64,000 nt of DNA from Streptomyces sp. NBC_01465 (lineage in GTDB: Bacteria > Actinomycetota > Actinomycetes > Streptomycetales > Streptomycetaceae): the NCBI RefSeq assembly GCF_036227325.1, contig NZ_CP109467.1, forward strand, positions 310,001 to 374,000, given 5' to 3'. The position numbers and the translations under genes were made by a program. The notes below the pieces were generated by a model. That model had not been told where the DNA came from. It was given only the letters and a program-made list of their open reading frames with translations, and did not search any database. Every line of letters begins with the position of its first letter. The first letter of the stretch is position 1. Shown here one piece after another: positions 51,219-64,000 of this stretch.

Positions 51219-51439
51219 TGCCGATCGCCGTCGACATCGACGTGATGCTGGCCAAGCGGAAGATGTCCGTGGGCGAACTCGCGGACCGCGTAGGGATCAC
51301 TCCCGCCAACCTGGCGGTACTCAAGAACGGCCGCGCCAAGGCGGTGCGCTTCGCGACGCTCGCCGCACTCTGCGCGGTCCTCGAGTGCCAGCCGGGCGAC
51401 CTGCTCCGCTGGGAGGCCGAGGACACCGCGAGCGAATGA
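51218..51439 (+). CDS. Cro/CI-type (YozG-like) HTH regulator
   Basis: 73 aa starting in TGATG, one base overlapping the DUF2975 stop. A single helix-turn-helix makes up most of the protein: MSVGELADRVGITPANLAVLK, then LAALCAVLECQPGDLL (quoted parts, positions about 15-65). It is of the HTH_26/YozG type that travels with DUF2975 membrane proteins. Probably regulates its own operon through the palindromes at 50677-50715. Confidence 0.88.
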   Translation: MPIAVDIDVMLAKRKMSVGELADRVGITPANLAVLKNGRAKAVRFATLAALCAVLECQPGDLLRWEAEDTASE

Positions 51440-51454
51440 CTGACGGCGGTCGTT

Positions 51455-52567
51455 TCAGCCGTTCTTGCCGTGCGGGGGCGCTGCAGCGGCCGCGAGCGCG
51501 TCGTGGATCGCGTCGTAGGCCGGCTTGTGGGCGAGGTTCTCGTCCCACGGGAGGGCTGCGCCCTCGCCCGGGAAGACGGCGGGAATCCACGAGTGCCGGT
51601 CCGAGTAGCCCCACACCGTGATGCCGACGCAGCGCTTCACCGCGAGGCAGGCGTCGGTCACCTGCCGGTACCAGTCGGCCTGTTGGGTCAGCTTGGCCGT
51701 GTCCGACGGCAGGTTCATTCGGATGTCGAGTTCGGTGAAGGCGACGTCGACGCGGAGGGCGGCGAAGCGCTGGAGGTTCTCCTTCAGCCCGGACGGGAAG
51801 CCGTACTGCAGCGCCAGGTGGCCCTGGAGGCCGAAGCCGTCGATCGGGACACGGTCGGCCTTGAGCTGCTTGATGAGGGTGTAGTACGCGTCCGACTTCG
51901 GGCCGATCGCCTCGACGTTGTAGTCGTTCAGGTACAGCTTGACCTTGGGGTCGGCCGCGTGGGCCCAGCGCAGGGCGTCGGCGATGTAGCCGGGGCCGAG
52001 GGTCTTGTAGAAGATGCTCTCCCGGTAGGTGCCGTCCTCGTTCATGATCTCGTTGGCGACGTCCCAGGCGAACACCTTGCCCTTGAAATGCTTGACCTCG
52101 GTCGTGATGTGGTTCTTGAGGATCGAACGGAGCTCGTCCGGCGTCCAGGTGCCGGAGGTCAGCCAGCCTGGCAGCTGGTTGTGCCACAGCAGGGTGTGGC
52201 CGCGGAGCTTGAGCCCGTTGGCGCGGGCGTAGTTCACGATCTCGTCGCCGGCGGTGAAGTCGAAGACACCGCGCTGGGGTTCGGTTGATTCCCACTTCAT
52301 GGCGTTGCCGGGGGTGGTGGCGCCGAACTCGGTGCCGAGGAGGTCGGCGTAGGCGGTGTCGGCGAGTTCGGGGTTGTCGACGGCGGAGCCGTAGTAGCGG
52401 CCGGTCTTCTGGGCGAGGTCGTCGAGCGTGGCCGCGCGATGGTGCCGTTCGGTGCCCGCGTGGGCGGCAGGCATTCCGGCGAGGCCGAGGGCGAGCGCGG
52501 CGGTCAGGCCGAGGGCGGCGGCTCTGGCGCACGTGCGGGTGCGGGTGCGTTGGACGGGAAGGGTCAT
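51455..52567 (-). CDS. Secreted GH10 endo-1,4-beta-xylanase
   Basis: 370 aa from the ATG at 52567 with GAGGAG upstream; the frame extends to 53497 inside the GH3 gene. Signal peptide ends near PAAHAGTE. GH10 catalytic domain with TPGNAMKWESTEP, GHTLLWHNQLPGW, acid/base Glu in AWDVANEIMN and nucleophile Glu in AFTELDIRMN; ITVWGYSDRHSW near the end. No binding module, so a single-domain xylanase. It cuts the xylan backbone outside the cell. Last gene in the GH3-ABC transporter direction, 103 bases after the GH3 stop with a hairpin between. Confidence 0.94.
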   Translation of the reverse strand: MTLPVQRTRTRTCARAAALGLTAALALGLAGMPAAHAGTERHHRAATLDDLAQKTGRYYGSAVDNPELADTAYADLLGTEFGATTPGNAMKWESTEPQRGVFDFTAGDEIVNYARANGLKLRGHTLLWHNQLPGWLTSGTWTPDELRSILKNHITTEVKHFKGKVFAWDVANEIMNEDGTYRESIFYKTLGPGYIADALRWAHAADPKVKLYLNDYNVEAIGPKSDAYYTLIKQLKADRVPIDGFGLQGHLALQYGFPSGLKENLQRFAALRVDVAFTELDIRMNLPSDTAKLTQQADWYRQVTDACLAVKRCVGITVWGYSDRHSWIPAVFPGEGAALPWDENLAHKPAYDAIHDALAAAAAPPHGKNG

Positions 52568-52634
52568 CGTGCGGCTCCTCAACTGGGGGATGTGGACGTG
52601 CAGTTGACGACGTACGCAATGTGCTGGTCGCGCC

Positions 52635-52666
52635 GGGCCGGGCGGCGGCTGGCGCGCGCCCGGCCC
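52635..52666 (-). terminator. Hairpin between GH3 and GH10 genes
   Basis: GGGCCGGGCG (52635-52644) pairs with CGCCCGGCCC (52657-52666), perfectly, over 12 bases. It begins five bases after the GH3 stop in the direction of transcription. It may terminate or attenuate, so the xylanase may have its own promoter. Confidence 0.55.
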
Positions 52667-52670
52667 CGCG

Positions 52671-54893
52671 CTACTTGACGCGCATCTCGCACCGCATCCG
52701 GCGCTCGTGCCCGACCTCCCGTACCGGCCCGGTGAGGGTGAGCGGCACGGTGTGGTGGACCTCCGCGCTGGAGGCGGCGATGCGCAGTTCGAGGGCACCG
52801 GGTTCGACGACACGGCGGCCGTCGGCTCCGGTGTAGGCGGCGAGGTCCGCGGGGAACGTGGCGTGGACCTCGGCCGAGGCGCCGGCGTCGAGCGGTACGC
52901 GGGCGTAGCCGACGAGCCGGACTTCGGGGCGGGCGACGGTGCCGACGGGGTCGTGGAGGTAGAGCTGTACGACCTCGGTGCCGGCCCGGTCGCCGGTGTT
53001 GCGGACGGTGAGGCGCACCGTGGTGTCGCCGTCGGTGGGCAGTTCGGGTGCGTCGCACTCGGGGAGGTCCCAGGCGAAGGCGGAGTAGGACAGGCCGTGC
53101 CCGAACGGGTAGAGGGGCGTCGGGTCCACGGTGCTGGGAAAGCCGTGCAGGGCGAGCGGCGGCGCGAGGTACGGGGCGGGCTGTCCTCCCGGCCTGGCGG
53201 GGACCGCGACCGGCAGGCGTCCGGAGGGATCGACGCGCCCGGACAGGACGCCCGCCACGGCCCCGCCGCCCTCCTGCCCGGGGAAGAACGCCTGGACGAC
53301 GGCGGCTGCCCGGCCGGCCCAGCGGCCGAGTGCGTACGGCCTGCCGCTGAGTACGACGATGACGACGGGAACCCCGGAGTCCATCGCGGAGTCCAGCACC
53401 TCCGCCTGCCCGTACGGCAGTTGGAGATCCTCCGCGTCGCACCCCTCTCCGGAGGAGCCGCGCCCGAACAGTCCCGACCGGTCCCCGACCACGGCAAGGC
53501 AGATGTCTGCTCCCGCCAGGTCGCCGACGAACGCGGCGTCCGGCAGCTCGGTGCGCAGCGCCTCGGCGAGCGTCGGCACGTCGATGCCGGTCGGCAGGCC
53601 GGGGTGGTGGACGCCGACGTGCCGCGGGAACGTGTAGCAGCCGAGCATGGCGGCCTGCTCGTCGGCGAGCGGCCCGACGAGTGCGATGCGCAGCCCGTCG
53701 CGCAGGGGCAGCACCCCGGCGTCGTTGGCGAGCAGCACCACGGACTCCTGGGCCACCCTCTGCGCCAGCTCCCGCATATGGGGCGGGTTCAGATCGACGG
53801 GTCCGTCGGCGGTGACGGGTTCCCAGCCGGGGTCGAGGAGCCCCAGTTCGCACTTCTGTGTGAGGACGCGCAGGGCGGCCCGGTCGAGCAGGTCCTCAGG
53901 GAGCGCGTCGGTGGGGCTGAAGCAGCGGGCCGCCGGCAGCTCCACGTCGACTCCGGCCGCGAGGGCGAGGCGCGCCGCCGCACCCTCCCCGTCGGCGATC
54001 TTGTGCGCCTCCTCCAGCAGGGAGACACCGTAGTAGTCCGACACCACCGTGCCGGTGAACTCCCATTGTTCTCGGAGGAGTTGGGTGAGCAGTGCGGGGT
54101 GGGCGTGGGCGGGCAGTCCGTCGATGTCGTTGTACGCGGGCATCACGGAGCGGGCGCCGCCGTCGCGCAGGGCCATCTCGAAGGGGGGCAGGATCACATC
54201 GGCGAGTTCGCGCGGGCCGAGCGAGGCGGGCGCGTGGTTGCGGGCGGCGCGCGAGGCGGAGTAGCCGGCGAAGTGCTTGAGCGTGGCGACGATGCCCGCG
54301 CTCTGCAGCCCCTGTACGTATGCGGTGCCGATGGTGCCGACGAGGTACGGGTCCTCGCCGATGGCCTCCTCGGTGCGGCCCCAGCGGGGATCGCGTACGA
54401 CGTCGAGGACCGGGGCGAGCCCCTGGTGGATGCCGACCGCGCGCATCGACACCCCGATCGCCAGGGCCATGTCGGTGATCAGCGCCGGGTCGAAGGTGGC
54501 GCCCCAGGCGAGAGGGGTCGGGAAGACGGTGGCCTGCCAGGCGGTGAAGCCGGTGAGGCACTCCTCGTGGGCGATCGCGGGCAGGCCGAACCGGTTGCCC
54601 CCGCTGATGGTGCGCTGCAGGTCGGCGAGGCGTGCGACGCCCTCGGCGGGTTCGACGGGGACGGTTCCGAAGGGCCGGGTGAGGTGCCCGAGGCCGTACG
54701 GGAGGAGTGCGTCCAGTACGGCGCTGCGGGCGGCGAAGGTGTGCTGCCCCGGGGCCACGTCGGCGCCCTCGGTGTCGGCGCCGATCCACACGCTGGACAG
54801 CTGGGCGGTCTTCTCCTCGTTGGTCATCCGGGCGAGCAGGTCCGCCGCCCGGGCGTGGGCGGGCAGGGTGGTGTCCTGCCATGGCTTGACCAT
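52671..54893 (-). CDS. GH3 beta-glycosidase (beta-xylosidase/beta-glucosidase type)
   Basis: 740 aa from the ATG at 54893 with GAGGAG upstream. N-terminal barrel with LAPVLDVVRDPRWGRTEE, GEDPYLVG, ATLKHFAGYSAS (KH and transition-state residues) and nucleophile Asp in TGTVVSDYYGV. The second domain has VVLLANDAGVLPLR and the C-terminal FnIII domain LTVRNTGDRAG. No signal peptide, so it is intracellular and acts on imported oligosaccharides. It is next to the sugar ABC permeases, which supports xylooligosaccharide as substrate. Specificity for xylose or glucose cannot be fixed from sequence. Confidence 0.92.
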   Translation of the reverse strand: MVKPWQDTTLPAHARAADLLARMTNEEKTAQLSSVWIGADTEGADVAPGQHTFAARSAVLDALLPYGLGHLTRPFGTVPVEPAEGVARLADLQRTISGGNRFGLPAIAHEECLTGFTAWQATVFPTPLAWGATFDPALITDMALAIGVSMRAVGIHQGLAPVLDVVRDPRWGRTEEAIGEDPYLVGTIGTAYVQGLQSAGIVATLKHFAGYSASRAARNHAPASLGPRELADVILPPFEMALRDGGARSVMPAYNDIDGLPAHAHPALLTQLLREQWEFTGTVVSDYYGVSLLEEAHKIADGEGAAARLALAAGVDVELPAARCFSPTDALPEDLLDRAALRVLTQKCELGLLDPGWEPVTADGPVDLNPPHMRELAQRVAQESVVLLANDAGVLPLRDGLRIALVGPLADEQAAMLGCYTFPRHVGVHHPGLPTGIDVPTLAEALRTELPDAAFVGDLAGADICLAVVGDRSGLFGRGSSGEGCDAEDLQLPYGQAEVLDSAMDSGVPVVIVVLSGRPYALGRWAGRAAAVVQAFFPGQEGGGAVAGVLSGRVDPSGRLPVAVPARPGGQPAPYLAPPLALHGFPSTVDPTPLYPFGHGLSYSAFAWDLPECDAPELPTDGDTTVRLTVRNTGDRAGTEVVQLYLHDPVGTVARPEVRLVGYARVPLDAGASAEVHATFPADLAAYTGADGRRVVEPGALELRIAASSAEVHHTVPLTLTGPVREVGHERRMRCEMRVK

Positions 54894-54943
54894 GGAACTC
54901 CTCAAGTGCGGTGTGTGCAGGGGGGTGGGCGGGCGGTCGCGAG

Positions 54944-55783
54944 TCAGCCCTTGGTCGCGCCCAGCGTGATCCCGCCGATCAGCTGCCGTTCGGCCACCGC
55001 GTAGAAGCCCAGCGCGGGCACCATGGCGAGGACGAGGTAGGCGAAGACGCGGGCGATGTCGGCGGAGTACTGGCCCTGGAACTGCTGGACGCCGACGGGG
55101 ATCGTCCACCAGGTCTGTTCGCTGAACACGAGCAGCGGCAGCAGGAAGTTGTTCCAGCTCGCCACCACCGCGAGCACCGAGACGGTGCCGAGGGCGGGCC
55201 GCGCCATGGGCAGCAGGATCCGCCAGAAGAATCCGAACGACGAGCAGCCGTCGAGAGTGGCCGCCTCCTCCAGCTCGCCGGGGATCTCCCGGAAGAAGCC
55301 GCGCAGGATGACGATGGTGATCGGCAGCCCGAACGCCGCCTGCGGCAGAATCACGCCCCACGGGTTGTCGAGCAGTCCGAAGGTGCGCAGCAGGATGAAC
55401 AGCGGCAGGATCGCCACGGCGAACGGGAACATGAGTCCGACGGTGAAGACCGTGAAGAGCAACTCCCGCCCACGGAAGGCGAATCGGGCCAGCGCGAACG
55501 CGGCGAGGGCGGCCGCGCCGACGGTCAGGACGGTCGTACCGACGGCGATGAGGGTGGAGGACCCGATGGCCCGCCAGAACGTTTCGGACTTCAGGATCGC
55601 CGTGTAGTTCCCCGTCTCCCAGGGCGAGGGAAGCCCGAAGACATTACTGGAGAGCTGGTCGGTGGACTTGAACCCGGAGACGAGTGCGTACAGCAGCGGC
55701 GTCACCATGACGATGCCGACCACCCACACGGTCACGTACAGGGGAACGGAGCGCAGCCGGCGCCGCAGCGCGGGGGCCGTCAT
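54944..55783 (-). CDS. Carbohydrate ABC transporter permease (MalG type)
   Basis: 279 aa from the ATG at 55783, which overlaps the stop of the upstream permease gene by four bases (ATGA). Six membrane segments (VPLYVTVWVVGIVMVTPLLY first) and the EAA loop EEAATLDGCSSFGFFWRILLP (part), which contacts the ATPase. The end GGITLGATKG is typical of the MalG group. No ATPase gene is near; streptomycetes normally share MsiK for such importers. Together with the other permease and the binding lipoprotein it would import oligosaccharides, here probably xylo-oligomers. Confidence 0.92.
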   Translation of the reverse strand: MTAPALRRRLRSVPLYVTVWVVGIVMVTPLLYALVSGFKSTDQLSSNVFGLPSPWETGNYTAILKSETFWRAIGSSTLIAVGTTVLTVGAAALAAFALARFAFRGRELLFTVFTVGLMFPFAVAILPLFILLRTFGLLDNPWGVILPQAAFGLPITIVILRGFFREIPGELEEAATLDGCSSFGFFWRILLPMARPALGTVSVLAVVASWNNFLLPLLVFSEQTWWTIPVGVQQFQGQYSADIARVFAYLVLAMVPALGFYAVAERQLIGGITLGATKG

Positions 55784-56775
55784 CGGGAGGCTCGCATGGT
55801 GGTGAGTGCTCCTTCGGTGTCGCGGCGCAGCACGAAGCGCTGGTAGGCGAGGGCGAAGACAAGGCTGATGAGGAACATGGCGATGCTGATCGCGCTGGCG
55901 TAGCCGACCTGGTAGCGCTTGAAGCCGTACTGGAACATGCTCACGGCCATGGTTTCCGAGTGGTGGTCCGGGCCGCCCTGGGTGGTCACCCACACCAGGT
56001 CGAAGAGCTGGATGGCGCCGATGACCGACAGGAAGATGCTCATCCGAATGGTCGGGCCCAGCAGCGGCAGCGTCACATGACGGAAGCGCTGCCAGGGCCC
56101 GGCGCCGTCGATGCGGGCGGCCTCGTGCAGCTCGGGCGGGATGCCCTGGAGCCCGGCGAGGTAGAGCATCATGTGGAAGCCGAAGTACTTCCACATCATG
56201 ACCAGGAAGAGCGTGGGCATGACGGTGTCCTGCCCGGCGAACCACAGCCCGCCGAGCGAGTCGAGGCCGACCGCGCCGAGCACCTTGTCCGCGAGCCCGT
56301 CGTCGGGCGCGAAGATCATGCCGAAGAGGATTCCGGTGATGACCTCGGACAGGACGTACGGGGCGAAGAACAGCATCCGGTAGAAGGCGCGGCCGCGCAG
56401 TTTCTGGTTGAGCAGGACCGCCATCGCCAGGGCGAACGGCAACTGGAGCGCGAGCGAGGCCACGACCAGGATCAGCCCGCGCCACAGGTCGCCGAGGAAG
56501 ACCGGGTCGTCGAGGAGGCGGGTGAAGTTGCCGAGGCCGGTGAAGTCCGAAGGCGACCCGAAACCGCCCCAGTTGAAGAAACTGACGTAGAGCGCGTACA
56601 TGATGGGCAGCAGGACGAAGAGCCCGAAGAGTGCGAGGGCCGGCACCGTGAACGTGACGGCCGTCAGCCACTCCCGCACCCGGCGCCCCAGGGGGCGCCT
56701 GTTCGCCGCGGCGGGGTCCGGGCCTTCGGCGAGCGGCGGTCGCCCGCCACGTATCTGGGTCGAAGTCATCGTCAT
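55780..56775 (-). CDS. Carbohydrate ABC transporter permease (MalF type)
   Basis: 331 aa. The start directly follows the solute-binding protein stop. Membrane segments include TVPALALFGLFVLLPIMYAL and the EAA loop HEAARIDGAGPWQRFRHVTLP (part). Pairs with the MalG-type permease, whose gene overlaps its stop by four bases. The first 35 residues are Pro-rich and basic. Confidence 0.92.
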   Translation of the reverse strand: MTMTSTQIRGGRPPLAEGPDPAAANRRPLGRRVREWLTAVTFTVPALALFGLFVLLPIMYALYVSFFNWGGFGSPSDFTGLGNFTRLLDDPVFLGDLWRGLILVVASLALQLPFALAMAVLLNQKLRGRAFYRMLFFAPYVLSEVITGILFGMIFAPDDGLADKVLGAVGLDSLGGLWFAGQDTVMPTLFLVMMWKYFGFHMMLYLAGLQGIPPELHEAARIDGAGPWQRFRHVTLPLLGPTIRMSIFLSVIGAIQLFDLVWVTTQGGPDHHSETMAVSMFQYGFKRYQVGYASAISIAMFLISLVFALAYQRFVLRRDTEGALTTMRASR

Positions 56776-58077
56776 TTACTGGCTCTTGAAGACCTGAGTG
56801 ATGGAACGGGTGACCTGTTCCGGCGACTTGGACCCGGCGATGAGGGCCGCGACGGAGTCGTTCACCTCCTGGCCGACCGCCGGTGGCAGGGCCTGGTCGA
56901 GGTAGAGCTGGAAGCCGGTCGCCTTGCCGAGCGTGTCGGAGACCGCCTTGAGGTTCGGGTCGGTGAGCGCGCTCACGGCGTCCTTGACGACCGGCATCAT
57001 GGATCCCTTGGTCACGAGGATGCGGTCGGACTCGGCGGTCATGAACCACTTCAGGAAGTCGGCAGCCGCTTTCGGGGCGCCCTTGCGCACCGCGTAACCG
57101 CCGCCTCCTCCGAAGACGTCGGTGAGCGCCCCCTGGCCGCCCGCCACCGAGGGGAACGGGAAGAAGCCGAGGTCGTCGCCGAGGCCCTTGCCCGCGTCGG
57201 CCTGGGTGACCGGGGCCCACTGGCCCATCAGCTCCATCGCCGCCTTGCCGTTGCCCATGGCGGCCGCCTCGCCGGTGGGCGTGGAGTACGCGGCACCGAG
57301 GAAGCCCTTCTGGAACGGCTCCAGGGCGACGAGCTCCTTGAGGTGGCCGCCTGCCGCGACGAACGGGTCGCCGGTGAAGTCCTTGGATTCGATGGCCTTC
57401 TGCATCCCGTCGACGCCCGCGGTGCGCATCGAGAGGTACGCCCAGTAGTACATGCCGGGCCACTTCTCCTTGCCGGCGAGGGCGAGTGGGGTGATCCCTG
57501 CGGCCTTGAGCTGCTTCACCGCGCTGAGGAAGTCCGCCCAGGTGGCGGGCGGGGCGGTGATCGAGGCCTTCTTGAAGAGCGCCTTGTTGTACCAGAAGCC
57601 GACGGCCCCGATGTCGATGGGGACGGCGTACGTCTTGCCGTCGACCTCGTAGGGCGCCCTCGATGCGGGGATGAGGGTGTCGGACCACGATTTGGTGGAT
57701 GCGGTGAGGTCCTCCACGAGACCGGCGTCGATCTGTTGCTCGAGAACCCCGCCGCCCCAGGTGTGGTAGATGTCCGGAAGCTTTCCGGAGCTGGTCAGCG
57801 CGGTCATCTTCGACTTGTACGCATCGTTCTCCAGCGTGACCAGCTTGATGTGCACCTTGGGGTTGGCTGCCTCGAAGTCCTTGGCGCGCTGGGGCCACAG
57901 GGTCTTCGTCGGTTCGGTGGTCTGGATGTTCCACCACTCCACCACGGTCCGTCCTGAGCTGTCCGTGGAGCCGGAACCCGAGTCGGAGCAGGCGCTGAGC
58001 GCCGCCGCGCCCAGGCCGGCCGCGGACGTGGCGGCCAGAAACTTGCGGCGACTGAGTGACGAGACGGTCCTGGGCAT
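56776..58077 (-). CDS. Extracellular sugar-binding lipoprotein of ABC importer
   Basis: 433 aa from 58077. Twin-arginine-like lipoprotein signal: RRKFLAATSAAGLGAAALSAC, Cys in LSAC. The mature part begins as an MBP-type (family 1) solute-binding protein: VEWWNIQTTEP, IKLVTLENDAYKSKM, GGAVL-like GGGVLEQQI and GGGGYAVRKGAPK. It captures the sugar outside and hands it to the two permeases encoded next. First gene of the operon; a palindrome CTTCCGGAAG and a terminator lie upstream. Tat export needs confirmation because the RR motif is followed by K-F-L. Confidence 0.92.
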   Translation of the reverse strand: MPRTVSSLSRRKFLAATSAAGLGAAALSACSDSGSGSTDSSGRTVVEWWNIQTTEPTKTLWPQRAKDFEAANPKVHIKLVTLENDAYKSKMTALTSSGKLPDIYHTWGGGVLEQQIDAGLVEDLTASTKSWSDTLIPASRAPYEVDGKTYAVPIDIGAVGFWYNKALFKKASITAPPATWADFLSAVKQLKAAGITPLALAGKEKWPGMYYWAYLSMRTAGVDGMQKAIESKDFTGDPFVAAGGHLKELVALEPFQKGFLGAAYSTPTGEAAAMGNGKAAMELMGQWAPVTQADAGKGLGDDLGFFPFPSVAGGQGALTDVFGGGGGYAVRKGAPKAAADFLKWFMTAESDRILVTKGSMMPVVKDAVSALTDPNLKAVSDTLGKATGFQLYLDQALPPAVGQEVNDSVAALIAGSKSPEQVTRSITQVFKSQ

Positions 58078-58084
58078 CGCACAC

Positions 58085-58094
58085 CTTCCGGAAG
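58085..58094. promoter_or_regulatory. Candidate LacI operator before the ABC operon
   Basis: CTTCCGGAAG is a perfect ten-base palindrome with a central CG, eight bases before the binding-protein start. It shares TTCCGGAA with the palindrome upstream of the LacI gene (59319-59328). LacI-family sites are typically palindromes with central CG. Confidence 0.45.
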
Positions 58095-58138
58095 TGATCC
58101 GAAAACTATCGGGGAATGGCCACGGAAGTTACGGGCAC

Positions 58139-58185
58139 AAAAAGGGGGTGTCAACAGCCTTAACAAAAAAGGCTGTTGACACCCC
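58139..58185 (-). terminator. Intrinsic terminator of the LacI gene
   Basis: Perfect 15-base arms, GGGGTGTCAACAGCC (58145-58159) and GGCTGTTGACACCCC (58171-58185), enclose an 11-base A/T-rich loop. Read on the minus strand the stem is followed by a T-run (58143-58139). It begins 18 bases after the LacI stop and separates the LacI gene from the transporter operon. Confidence 0.88.
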
Positions 58186-58202
58186 TGGTGGCGGCGCCGC
58201 GG

Positions 58203-59288
58203 CTAGGACGCGCGCGGCGCCGCCGTACTGGCCCTGACCACGAGTTCTGTCGCCAACTCCACACGCGGGGACGCGGGCTCGACAGCACGGGCCAGATCGA
58301 GCAGCATCCGGGCCGCCAACTTGCCCATGTCGGACAGAGGCTGGCGAACCGTGGTGAGCGGTGGCGCCGACCACCGCACCTCGGGAAGGTCGTCGAAGCC
58401 GACCACGCTCATGTCCTCCGGCACCCGCAGCCCGCGCCGGCGCAGCGCCTCGATCGCCCCGAGTGCCATCTGGTCGCTGGCGGCGAAGACGGCGGTCGGG
58501 GGCCGGTCCAGGTCCAACAGCCGGTTGCAGCCGGTGAATCCGGACGCATGATAGAAATCCCCGGGCACGATCAGGGAGTCGTCCACCGCTACGCCGGCCA
58601 CGTCCAGGGCCGCCCGGTAGCCGTCCAGCCGGGCCCGTGAGCACAGCAGCCGCGACGGACCCTGTACGAATCCGATCCGGCGGTGCCCGAGACCGAGCAG
58701 ATGCTCGGTGGCTGCCATCCCGCCCGCCCAGTTGGTGGCGCCCACCGTCGGCTCCTCCGAAGCGGGCGAACCGGCCGAGTCGACCACCACCAACGGCACA
58801 CCCAGGCGCCGCAGTTCGTCGTGGAGGCCCGGTTCAAGGACCGAAGTCACCAGGATCACGCCGTCGGACGCACGGGAGCGCAGATTGGTCATCCACTGGC
58901 GGGCCGCCCCCGCCCGGTCGTGGATCGCGGAGACCACCGTGCCCACCCCCGCCTCGTGCGCGACCTCCTCGACACCCCGGATGATCTCGACGGCCCAGGG
59001 GCTGTCCAGGTCGTTGAAGACCAGGTCGAGCAGGGCCGCCCGGTCGCCCGGCGAGGGCGAGCGACGCCGGTAGCCGTGGAGCCGCAGCAGCTCCTCGACC
59101 CGGGCGCGGGTGGCCGGAGCGACGTCGGAGCGCCCGTTGACGACGCGCGAGACAGTCGGGACGGACACCCCGGCCTCCCGTGCGATCTCGGTGATCGTCA
59201 CCTTGGCCGGCCCGTCCGGGCTCCGCGCGGCGGTCCTGCGCTGGGTGTCTTCCCGGGCCACGTTCCCCACCTCCGTCGACATCTCCAT
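58203..59288 (-). CDS. LacI-family transcriptional regulator
   Basis: 361 aa from the ATG at 59288 (AAGGAA upstream); ATG 59282 is an alternative and the frame runs to 59576. DNA-binding domain about 30-85: VTITEIAREAGVSVPTVSRVVNGRSDV, in which VSVPTVSRVVNG is the recognition helix and hinge. Ligand-binding core follows (LVFNDLDSPWAVEIIRGVEE, VVGFDDLPEVRWSAPPLTTV quoted in parts). It faces the xylan-utilisation genes on the same strand and probably controls them like Streptomyces BxlR or CebR. The effector may be a xylo-oligosaccharide. Confidence 0.9.
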   Translation of the reverse strand: MEMSTEVGNVAREDTQRRTAARSPDGPAKVTITEIAREAGVSVPTVSRVVNGRSDVAPATRARVEELLRLHGYRRRSPSPGDRAALLDLVFNDLDSPWAVEIIRGVEEVAHEAGVGTVVSAIHDRAGAARQWMTNLRSRASDGVILVTSVLEPGLHDELRRLGVPLVVVDSAGSPASEEPTVGATNWAGGMAATEHLLGLGHRRIGFVQGPSRLLCSRARLDGYRAALDVAGVAVDDSLIVPGDFYHASGFTGCNRLLDLDRPPTAVFAASDQMALGAIEALRRRGLRVPEDMSVVGFDDLPEVRWSAPPLTTVRQPLSDMGKLAARMLLDLARAVEPASPRVELATELVVRASTAAPRAS

Positions 59289-59318
59289 CCGGCTTCCTTC
59301 CGAGAAGACTCCGGATGT

Positions 59319-59328
59319 TTTCCGGAAA
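59319..59328. promoter_or_regulatory. Candidate LacI operator in the LacI-sigma intergenic region
   Basis: TTTCCGGAAA is a perfect ten-base palindrome within GTTTTCCGGAAAC, 31 bases before the LacI start and 89 bases before the sigma-AbfB start. It shares TTCCGGAA with the site before the transporter operon. Confidence 0.5.
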
Positions 59329-59416
59329 CCGTATGCCATGCCGTCGACCTGATGGCACCCGAAGTCTTGACGTGTGCAGGAGACGCCACAATCCTGAGTG
59401 ACCGGCTGGTCGACCC

Positions 59417-60994
59417 ATGTTCGACATGACGAATACGATGAGCGAGATGGGAAGAAAACTCGTGGATGCGGACCACGCGCGGCTGGTCGTCGCAGCACAG
59501 GCCGGTGACGACCGGGCACGCGAGGAACTGATCGCCGCATACCTGCCATTGCTCTACAACATCGTCGGGCGCGCACTGAGCGGGCATGCGGATGTCGACG
59601 ACGTCGTCCAGGAGACCCTGCTGCGCGTGGTGCGCGACCTGCCCGCCCTGCGTGCCCCGGAGAGCTTCCGGTCCTGGCTGGTGTCGATCACGCTCCGCCA
59701 GATCAGTACCCAACGGCAACGGCAACGCGCCTTCGCCGGCCGGACCGCGGTCATCGACGAGGCACGCGAGATCCCGGACGCCGGTGCCGAACCCGAGGAC
59801 CTCACGATCCTGCGCCTGCACAGGTCGGACGAGCGCCGTCAGGCTGTCGAGGCCGGCCGGTGGCTCGACCCGGACCAGCGGGTGCTGCTGTCGCTGTGGT
59901 GGCAGGAGGGCGCCGGATCGCTGAGCCGTGGCGACATCGCCGCCGCGACGGGGCTCACCGTCGCCCATGTCGGGGTGAGCCTCCAACGCATGCGTGAGCA
60001 GCTGGAGTTGAGCCGTACGATCGTCGCCGCGCTGGAGGCCGACCCCCGCTGTCCGCAGTTGGACGAGACTCTCGTCGGCTGGGACGGTCTGCGTACGTCG
60101 GTGTGGCGCAAGAGGATCGCTCGGCACACCCGCGCATGCCCGGTCTGCGCGGCAACGACGACGGAACGGGTTCCGGCCGAGCTCCTGCTCTTCAGCCTCG
60201 CCCCGCTGGCGGTCCCCGCCGGGCTCGTCGCCGCGCTGGCCGTCAAGGGCCTGCTGTCGGGTACGGCCACGAGCACCGCCGGGCTGGCCACGGCGGCAGC
60301 GGGAGGAGGCGGTCTGCACGGCACACTGATCGGCAAACTCTCCGCGGTGACCACGCATCAGCTGGTGGGCCTCACCACCGGCGCGGTGCTCGTCGCCGGG
60401 ACCGCCGCTTACGTGACCTGGCCCGAACCGGCGCATCGGGTCCCCGGCGTCACCGCCGCTCCCACGGTCGGCAGTCCCACGCCGGCCCCGTCGCACACCG
60501 CCCCGCCGGCCGCGCCGTCCCCGGTGAGTCCGTCCGCCGTCGCGGGCACTGTTCCGCTGGGCGCGCAGTCACTGGAGTCCATGGACGAACCCGGACAATA
60601 CCTCACGTATGCGGGCGCCTTCGCGACGCTCGGCGGGCTCTCCGCGGACAGCAGTGCGCAGACACGCCGGCGGTTCGTCTTCACGGTGGTACGGGGGCTG
60701 GCCGATCCCCGGTGCGTCACCTTCCGCGCCGCCGACGGCCGCTATCTGCGCCATCGTGACCTGCGGCTACGGCTGAGTTCCGACAACGGCAGCGACCTGT
60801 TCCGTGAAGACGCCACCTTCTGCCCGTCCCCCGGCGCGACCGCCGGATCGGTGACCCTGCACGCACACAACTATCCCGGATCAGTCCTCCGCCACCGCGA
60901 CGGTGGCATCCGGCTGGACGGCTCCGACGGCACGCGGGCCTTCGCAGGCCAGGCGTCCTTCTTCGCGCGGACCGGGACGGCAGGCTCGGCGTAA
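59417..60994 (+). CDS. Transmembrane ECF sigma factor with ZAS motif and C-terminal AbfB (CBM42) domain
   Basis: 525 aa from the ATG at 59417; in-frame ATG codons at 59426, 59438 and 59447 are also possible. Sigma region 2 about 20-105 (YNIVGRALSGHADVDDVVQETL, part) and region 4 about 145-205 (GDIAAATGLTVAHVGVSLQRM). Next, H237-x3-C241-x2-C244 (RHTRACPVC) looks like the zinc-binding anti-sigma (ZAS) motif. Hydrophobic stretches at 255-280 and 316-335, with a weaker Ala/Gly-rich one between, cross the membrane. A Pro/Ser/Thr linker (340-380) leads to an AbfB arabinose-binding domain (386-518: PGQYLTYAG, RCVTFRAADGRYLRH, NYPGSVLRH). Divergent from LacI; xylanase-arabinofuranosidase downstream. 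Confidence 0.85.
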   Translation: MFDMTNTMSEMGRKLVDADHARLVVAAQAGDDRAREELIAAYLPLLYNIVGRALSGHADVDDVVQETLLRVVRDLPALRAPESFRSWLVSITLRQISTQRQRQRAFAGRTAVIDEAREIPDAGAEPEDLTILRLHRSDERRQAVEAGRWLDPDQRVLLSLWWQEGAGSLSRGDIAAATGLTVAHVGVSLQRMREQLELSRTIVAALEADPRCPQLDETLVGWDGLRTSVWRKRIARHTRACPVCAATTTERVPAELLLFSLAPLAVPAGLVAALAVKGLLSGTATSTAGLATAAAGGGGLHGTLIGKLSAVTTHQLVGLTTGAVLVAGTAAYVTWPEPAHRVPGVTAAPTVGSPTPAPSHTAPPAAPSPVSPSAVAGTVPLGAQSLESMDEPGQYLTYAGAFATLGGLSADSSAQTRRRFVFTVVRGLADPRCVTFRAADGRYLRHRDLRLRLSSDNGSDLFREDATFCPSPGATAGSVTLHAHNYPGSVLRHRDGGIRLDGSDGTRAFAGQASFFARTGTAGSA

Positions 60995-61023
60995 CACTTT
61001 TTGCCTGCGAGATGCATCACTGA

Positions 61024-63543
<2,520 letters not shown>

Positions 63544-63618
63544 CCTGTCTGCTCAGGCCGGGTAGGAAAGGCCCGCCGGCCCACGCGGAGACCGTCCGCG
63601 AGAGCACGGCCCCACCCA

Positions 63619-63646
63619 GGACTGACCCGCGACCGCGGGTCAGTCC
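63619..63646 (+). terminator. Terminator hairpin after the GH10-GH62 gene
   Basis: GGACTGACCCGCG (63619-63631) and CGCGGGTCAGTCC (63634-63646) are perfect inverted copies; in practice a 12-bp stem with a four-base loop. 76 bases after the stop. No U-run. Confidence 0.6.
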
Positions 63647-63800
63647 ACCCCCGCACACCCCCCGAACACCGTCCTCACCGAGCTACCGTCCACCGGCTCA
63701 TCGTGCTGCCAGATGCTCAGGACGTCCGTATGCCGGGAATACAACCCGGCACCCGAACTTCCTTGAGCCCGCGGTTTCCCGGAAGGACGTACCCCCCCAC

Positions 63801-64000
63801 ATGTTCACCACTCAGGAGAAATGGGACCGCGGTTATGCCGACGGCCACCGTTATCGCCAACTCCGCGACAGCGAACGCTCATTGCTGGCAACACATGCAC
63901 CGGCACCAGTCGAGGGACGGGCTCTGGACGTCGGCTGCGGACTCGGCGAACTCGCAGCCCACCTGTCCGCACTCGGCTACACCGTGGATGCCGTCGACTG
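63801..64000 (+). CDS. SAM-dependent methyltransferase, 3' truncated
   Basis: Starts at the ATG 63801 (MFTTQEKWDRGYADG) and runs off the window after 66 codons. Motif I is ALDVGCGLGELAAHL, followed by GYTVDAVD as motif II start, as in class I methyltransferases of the UbiE/Ubie-like group. A GGAAGGA lies 15 bases upstream, rather far for a ribosome binding site. No function beyond methyl transfer can be given. Confidence 0.8.
   Translation, partial: MFTTQEKWDRGYADGHRYRQLRDSERSLLATHAPAPVEGRALDVGCGLGELAAHLSALGYTVDAVD

Follow-up and report, generated by a model that had tools for sequence, protein, structure and literature searches.

The window, a 64,000-nucleotide stretch of the Streptomyces sp. 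NBC_01465 genome, contains on its forward strand a gene (59417..60994) for a protein of 525 amino acids, here called AbfB-sigma, followed on the same strand by a gene for a secreted xylanase-arabinofuranosidase (61132..63543). From the N-terminus, the AbfB-sigma protein consists of an ECF sigma domain (residues 34-197, 59516..60007, with region 2 at 38-104), a zinc anti-sigma-like motif C212-H237-C241-C244 (60050..60148), a first hydrophobic stretch (254-276, 60176..60244), a second one that is the likely single membrane span (316-334, 60362..60418), a Pro/Ser/Thr-rich linker (336-384, 60422..60568), and an AbfB/CBM42 beta-trefoil (385-515, 60569..60961), all on the + strand. Translation may begin further in, since the upstream consensus of the orthologues shows, by eye, a GGAGG-ATG that is conserved and points to about M11, which would place the true start perhaps at 59447. 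The upstream consensus of 63 AbfB-sigma genes also holds, by eye, a housekeeping-like TTGGCC-N17-TAAGGT, which is consistent with steady, not self-activated, expression.

An earlier sequence-only reading had described the protein as a single chain with sigma regions 2 and 4, an HxxxCxxC motif, hydrophobic segments, a Pro/Ser/Thr linker and a C-terminal arabinose-type AbfB module, and all of these parts were recovered by domain and motif matches. Pfam Sigma70_r2 matched residues 38-104 (E 2.9e-13), NCBIfam TIGR02937 (sigma70-ECF) residues 34-197 (7.4e-19, above cut-off), and Pfam AbfB residues 385-515 (1.1e-36, 126.5 bits against a cut-off of 22.8). As the TIGR02937 match spans residues 34-197, it includes the region-4 part of the sigma domain, and the Pfam region-4 model itself gave no match in the protein at E up to 1. 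Together, TIGR02937 and Sigma70_r2 give regions 2 and 4 without region 3, as in ECF group IV. The Pfam zinc-finger model zf-HC2 likewise gave no match at E up to 1, so the zinc motif is identified from its ligands, spacing and position, i.e. HxxxCxxC (H237, C241, C244) with an upstream Cys/His ligand as in ZAS domains; the upstream C212, a fourth candidate ligand, had been missed in the sequence-only reading.

The top PDB sequence match of the protein was the CBM42 of the Clostridium anti-sigma factor RsgI5 (9fnk), and E. coli sigma-E was among the PDB sequence matches to the N-terminal half. Foldseek and VIA-align (its rows mostly covering residues 371-523) concurred in the AbfB assignment, which combines the AbfB profile with the beta-trefoil fold of CBM42. 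Foldseek matches of the sigma half had an rmsd near 19 A across both domains, i.e. single domains match and their arrangement does not, and in the AlphaFold model (pTM 0.37) the mutual placement of the zinc motif and the sigma domain is not fixed.

Orthologues aligned from the sigma domain through AbfB amounted to 70 rows (66 distinct sequences), made up of 60 of the best 80 of 94 places in a scan of named genomes and ten from other searches. C212, H237, C241 and C244 are present in 70/70 rows with a spacing of 25-4-3, and are invariant in a 35-row family alignment including eight relatives with other C-termini; by comparison with ZAS proteins they are the putative zinc ligands. H446 and D465, also present in 70/70 rows, correspond to the residues that form the pocket in the beta subdomain of AbfB (register taken from the PDB match), and the gamma pocket is less well kept (H493 in 56 of 70 rows). 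In a published CBM42 crystal structure, arabinose occupied the beta and the gamma pocket and no other (PMC12493170). Full-length forms were identified in Streptomyces, Kitasatospora, Catellatospora, Phytomonospora and Micromonospora. Their spread over five genera with invariant ligand residues speaks against a chance or decayed fusion without function, a reading that we regard as extremely improbable; in its favour, the frame is broken relative to the query on three contigs (L093 10010-11389, L094 10010-11584 and L095 9965-11224), by sequencing error or decay.

Of the two hydrophobic stretches after the zinc motif, the first is a conserved motif with prolines, modelled by AlphaFold as two short helices, and is probably no membrane span. 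A simple insertion-energy scan placed the better span in the second stretch in 90/90 proteins, with a bias toward the second as a longer stretch was searched for it than for the first, and the second is likelier to be the actual span; the AlphaFold model is not confident there, and its confidence is low at residues 281-355 and 360-376, overlapping the linker. In five CAP-type relatives (L019, L020, L022, L024 and L035) an Arg run lies directly before the second stretch, as expected for the inner side; in the AbfB type the charge at this place is just +1, with no Arg run. The simplest reading, which these features favour, is one membrane pass with the C-terminus and AbfB outside, in keeping with the odd number of passes that the sequence-only reading had called for. 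Two passes, by which AbfB would end up inside, are disfavoured by the scan.

The gene at 61132..63543, read as a xylanase-arabinofuranosidase from the sequence alone, encodes a secreted protein in which Pfam recognises a GH10 xylanase, a Ricin-type lectin and a GH62 arabinofuranosidase domain, and is the predicted target. Downstream DNA was compared at 65 loci (60 of the 70 orthologue rows together with L093, L094, L095, L098 and L100), and adjacency was counted by tblastn, a simple gene finder having missed several GH10 genes. Altogether 59 of the loci belong to Streptomyces or Kitasatospora, including L081, which is named 'Actinobacteria bacterium OV450'. In 58 of these 59, GH10 and GH62 matches lie downstream on the same strand; the one exception, L046, has neither match. 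A GH74 match follows in 40 and is present anywhere in the locus in 46. Two loci (L044 and L052) have a different GH62 in place, with 44% identity, and a GH10 of about 80%. The remaining six of the 65 loci lack the sigma-GH10-GH62 gene order: nearby genes are GH127, GH62, GH43 and GH10 in L090 (Phytomonospora), alpha-L-arabinofuranosidase, GH29 and GH43 in L092 (Catellatospora), GH29 and alpha-galactosidase in L089 (Catellatospora), and a GH30-like protein in L100, and in L091 and L098 (Micromonospora) there is no recognisable arabinoxylan enzyme beside the AbfB-sigma gene.

These pairings bear on the nature of the signal. The sigma factor could drive the xylanase gene without a sugar trigger, if the Cys/His motif sensed oxidation or the membrane segment envelope stress, and if AbfB just docked the protein to plant material. 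Redox-sensing zinc anti-sigma factors, such as RsrA, exist, and the complete Cys-His-Cys-Cys set is common to relatives with modules that do not bind carbohydrate, e.g. CAP. This alternative is nevertheless unlikely in our judgement, because the outer module fits the target, AbfB being found with GH62/GH10 in 58/59 loci and with alpha-L-arabinofuranosidase (L092) or GH127/GH62 (L090) elsewhere, and because the beta-pocket residues of AbfB are invariant.

On the opposite strand beside the sigma gene, the region 51321-59576 contains genes for a LacI regulator and a solute-binding protein and, by reading of the ORFs, two permeases, a GH3-like and another GH10-like protein, i.e. a second xylan-type set.

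The intergenic DNA between the sigma and xylanase genes shows a conserved block of about 110 bases across 58 rows, one of which is the window. After the addition of distant loci, the core left was TTYYGTTAY-N17/18-GYCTCC, which in the window reads TTCCGTTAC, 18 bases, GCCTCC (61048..61080, + strand) and is the predicted promoter of the AbfB-sigma factor. The last base of GCCTCC is 52 bases before the ATG at 61132, a distance that plausibly suits a promoter role. With a spacer of 15-19 bases allowed and at most 800 bases downstream of the sigma gene, the pattern was found in 62 of the 65 loci, with no further site in 2.66 Mb of their DNA (both strands counted) and none in Markov shuffles of the flank DNA. 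The loci missed were L038 and L049, which a looser pattern fits, and L100. In the whole 9.14 Mb genome, the site at 61048-61080 is the single one, and the reversed control gave 0. The loose pattern GTTAYN{16,19}GYCTC produced 41 genome sites versus 38 for its reversed control, which is at background level, and no wider regulon is therefore claimed. The element is retained where the downstream gene differs (L089, L090, L091, L092 and L098), and in L046, which is without GH10 and GH62, it now precedes GH74. As a candidate second promoter of AbfB-sigma, CTTTTTTGTTAAG at 58159-58171 was rejected; by eye, it lies within a palindrome just before the housekeeping-type promoter (TTGACA-N17-TAACTT) of the transporter gene.

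Upstream of the promoter, a conserved element TAACACTTTTTGCCTGCGAGATGCATCAC (60992..61020, + strand) overlaps the sigma stop codon and contains the palindrome GATGCATC. It has a single genome site at up to 3 mismatches, and is perhaps an operator for a second regulator. No known RNA element was found in the conserved block at gathering score (region 58000-64000). Alternatively, the whole block could be an operator or promoter for other regulators, such as the nearby LacI or a housekeeping sigma factor, with AbfB-sigma acting elsewhere. About 110 conserved bases, the unique 60992-61020 element among them, exceed the need of a promoter, and the window has a LacI-family gene beyond the far end of the sigma gene. 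We assign a low probability to this explanation. Against it stand the distribution of the element among enzyme homologues and sigma relatives and the window sequence from the element to the xylanase start codon, in which no housekeeping-type promoter was seen by eye.

In a control sample of 30 of the 82 matches to the xylanase-arabinofuranosidase protein, the promoter element was present before 8/8 GH10-GH62 genes adjoining AbfB-sigma and before 0/22 other homologues, which argues against control by other regulators. Three of these 22 (L222, L223 and L224, the last with a stop inside) have the same GH10-lectin-GH62 build and no element, and no full-length AbfB-sigma was found in their respective genomes (G016, G049 and G011). 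Among ten AbfB-sigma loci from a second search, several of which share genomes with the named-genome scan and are not independent, the element was downstream in eight, on the other strand in L127 and absent in L126, which is of AbfB type with a GH26 gene next. In L127 (genome G007), the element is 137 bases ahead of the sigma match and faces a divergent gene for a secreted 551-aa protein, which ends in an AbfB domain and whose front part gave no identification. By eye, a TTGACA-N18-TAACTT lies between the element and the divergent gene, and thus the case for a promoter-target link is weaker at this locus.

A family search of 100 genomes at E 1e-20 returned matches to the AbfB-sigma protein in 63, at least one of them (G032) through AbfB alone; the full AbfB form occurred in 10 of the 100, own genome included. 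From 80 regions of non-AbfB matches, which are a subset, 81 members were read. Their module types were obtained by clustering, and a single representative was scanned with Pfam for each of eight types. CAP type accounted for 46 members (L134, L135 and 44 others) and was the commonest outer module, and an unnamed type for 14 (L140, L143, L144 and 11 others), with an outer module of ~200 residues for which Pfam gave no match in its scanned representative. The other members were 4 Glyco_hydro_cc, 4 GH99-like, 2 + 2 of other unnamed types, 2 beta-helix, 1 RicinB, and 6 short, masked or unclear. In L162 and L165, a Glyco_hydro_cc or GH99-like module occupies the sensor position.

When the pattern GTTAY-N16..19-GYCTCN was searched from 250 bases before to 60 bases into the gene, a promoter-type element was found before the own sigma gene in 37 of the 81 relatives with other C-termini (24/46 CAP, 9/14 unnamed, 2/4 Glyco_hydro_cc and 2/6 unclear). 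For 33 of these 37, its distance ahead of the gene start is 65-124 bases. Elsewhere in the DNA of the relatives, there were 3 pattern matches in 1.81 Mb. The pattern was not found before the gene in 44/81, including all 4 GH99, both beta-helix, all 4 unnamed-A/B and the RicinB member; near variants were seen by eye in several of 14 inspected upstream stretches without a match. Its own promoter element before a sigma gene is the usual sign of self-activation, and for this reason the GTTAY-N-GYCTCC-type element looks like the promoter of the sigma family. Such an occurrence before the sigma genes of relatives also counts against assigning the conserved block to other regulators. In the AbfB branch, the element is located before the downstream gene, not before the sigma gene. 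The tie between AbfB-sigma and the xylanase-arabinofuranosidase gene, which the sequence-only reading had based on adjacency, is thus strengthened by conserved gene order and by a promoter element common to the family, and AbfB-sigma probably turns on the neighbouring xylan-degrading enzyme gene via a recognisable promoter.

A tree built from 103 sigma-zinc halves requires the AbfB label to change twice, and its starred branches force two changes. L017 of genome G007 (region L127), which is of AbfB type, clusters with the unnamed-module type, on a long branch that makes its placement less sure. We lean slightly toward the view that these one-chain sigma factors of Actinobacteria form a plug-in sensor platform, in which a constant sigma-zinc-membrane half would be combined with outer modules that can be exchanged (AbfB, CAP, glycosidase cores, lectin and others), and in which GTTAY-N17/18-GYCTCC would be the common promoter code. 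For the AbfB branch, where the promoter precedes one arabinoxylan operon, this would mean a nearly single-target switch, and AbfB would have been gained on two or more occasions, the target going along with the sensor.

The sequence-only reading is supported in part: the parts that it named and the tie to the neighbouring gene hold, and one-chain architecture of this kind is already published; what is new is the wiring to a xylanase gene and the promoter. ECF52 proteins, represented by SCO4117 of Streptomyces coelicolor, are described as an ECF sigma domain, zinc finger, membrane region, Pro-rich extension and carbohydrate-binding domain in one chain, with release proposed by proteolysis or shape change, and SCO4117 as a pleiotropic regulator of development with the proposed motif CSGYN-17-SRHA (PMC5826349). 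The same order of parts would allow AbfB-sigma to be an ordinary developmental regulator of the SCO4117 type that carries another sugar module, but its likeness to ECF52 is one of architecture alone. BLASTP against the ECF52-type protein that this genome encodes elsewhere (L132; NPCBM, zf-HC2, next to a TetR-like gene) showed no similarity (best E 10), the ECF52 type has NPCBM in place of AbfB, and one xylanase gene is the predicted target here in contrast to a pleiotropic role. Membership in ECF52 was thus rejected, and the developmental reading is very improbable.

ECF53 proteins are described as combining a zinc finger with one or two membrane helices, and some of them are predicted to carry glycosyl hydrolase and carbohydrate-binding domains (PMC8999054, PMC10766802); modules of such kinds are among those of the relatives of AbfB-sigma. 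In Clostridium thermocellum, RsgI5 is given as RsgI_N-unknown-CBM42 (PMC4711584), and the RsgI route as ending with RseP and ClpXP (PMC12203970). Both SigI5/RsgI5 and AbfB-sigma couple an extracellular CBM42 (predicted to be outside in the latter) to a sigma factor and plant-wall enzymes; the former has a SigI-type sigma and a separate anti-sigma factor, whereas the latter is one chain with an ECF sigma and a zinc motif, in which Pfam found no RsgI_N domain. IutY of Pseudomonas putida (ECF243) also has an anti-sigma part fused at the C-terminus, and its release by Prc and RseP proteolysis is reported as shown experimentally (PMC8999054). IutY responds to a siderophore by Gram-negative surface signalling and has no carbohydrate module. 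In the literature covered, which includes few subscription papers, no paper was found that links AbfB, or the promoter element, to an ECF sigma factor. A 2024 review notes that ECF52 and ECF53 members predicted to contain glycosyl hydrolase and carbohydrate-binding domains have yet to be validated by experiment (PMC10766802).

The best explanation of the locus, and in our estimation a fairly likely one, is a sugar-gated, membrane-anchored one-chain switch that drives the adjoining xylanase-arabinofuranosidase gene. At the level of sequence comparison, the parts, the gene order, the promoter element and its co-occurrence with the sigma family are well supported, and from these we infer zinc binding, the outside position of AbfB, inhibition in cis, sugar as the signal, and a release step. 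Inside the cell, the zinc motif would keep its own sigma domain inactive, and the one membrane pass and the disordered linker would place the AbfB module outside. On meeting arabinofuranosyl side chains of arabinoxylan, the module would cause the hold to be lifted, through proteolysis at the membrane or a conformational change, and the freed sigma domain would transcribe the xylanase-arabinofuranosidase gene from the promoter element at 61048-61080 (TTCCGTTAC-N18-GCCTCC).

The likely input at this locus is arabinofuranosyl groups, promoter and target enzyme are both defined, and the genome has a single such site, which allows the whole chain to be tested with one reporter fusion. If the explanation is true, the promoter code would let other family members be paired with their targets, and Gram-positive hosts could be made to sense sugars of choice by a natural design in which the outer module is swapped.
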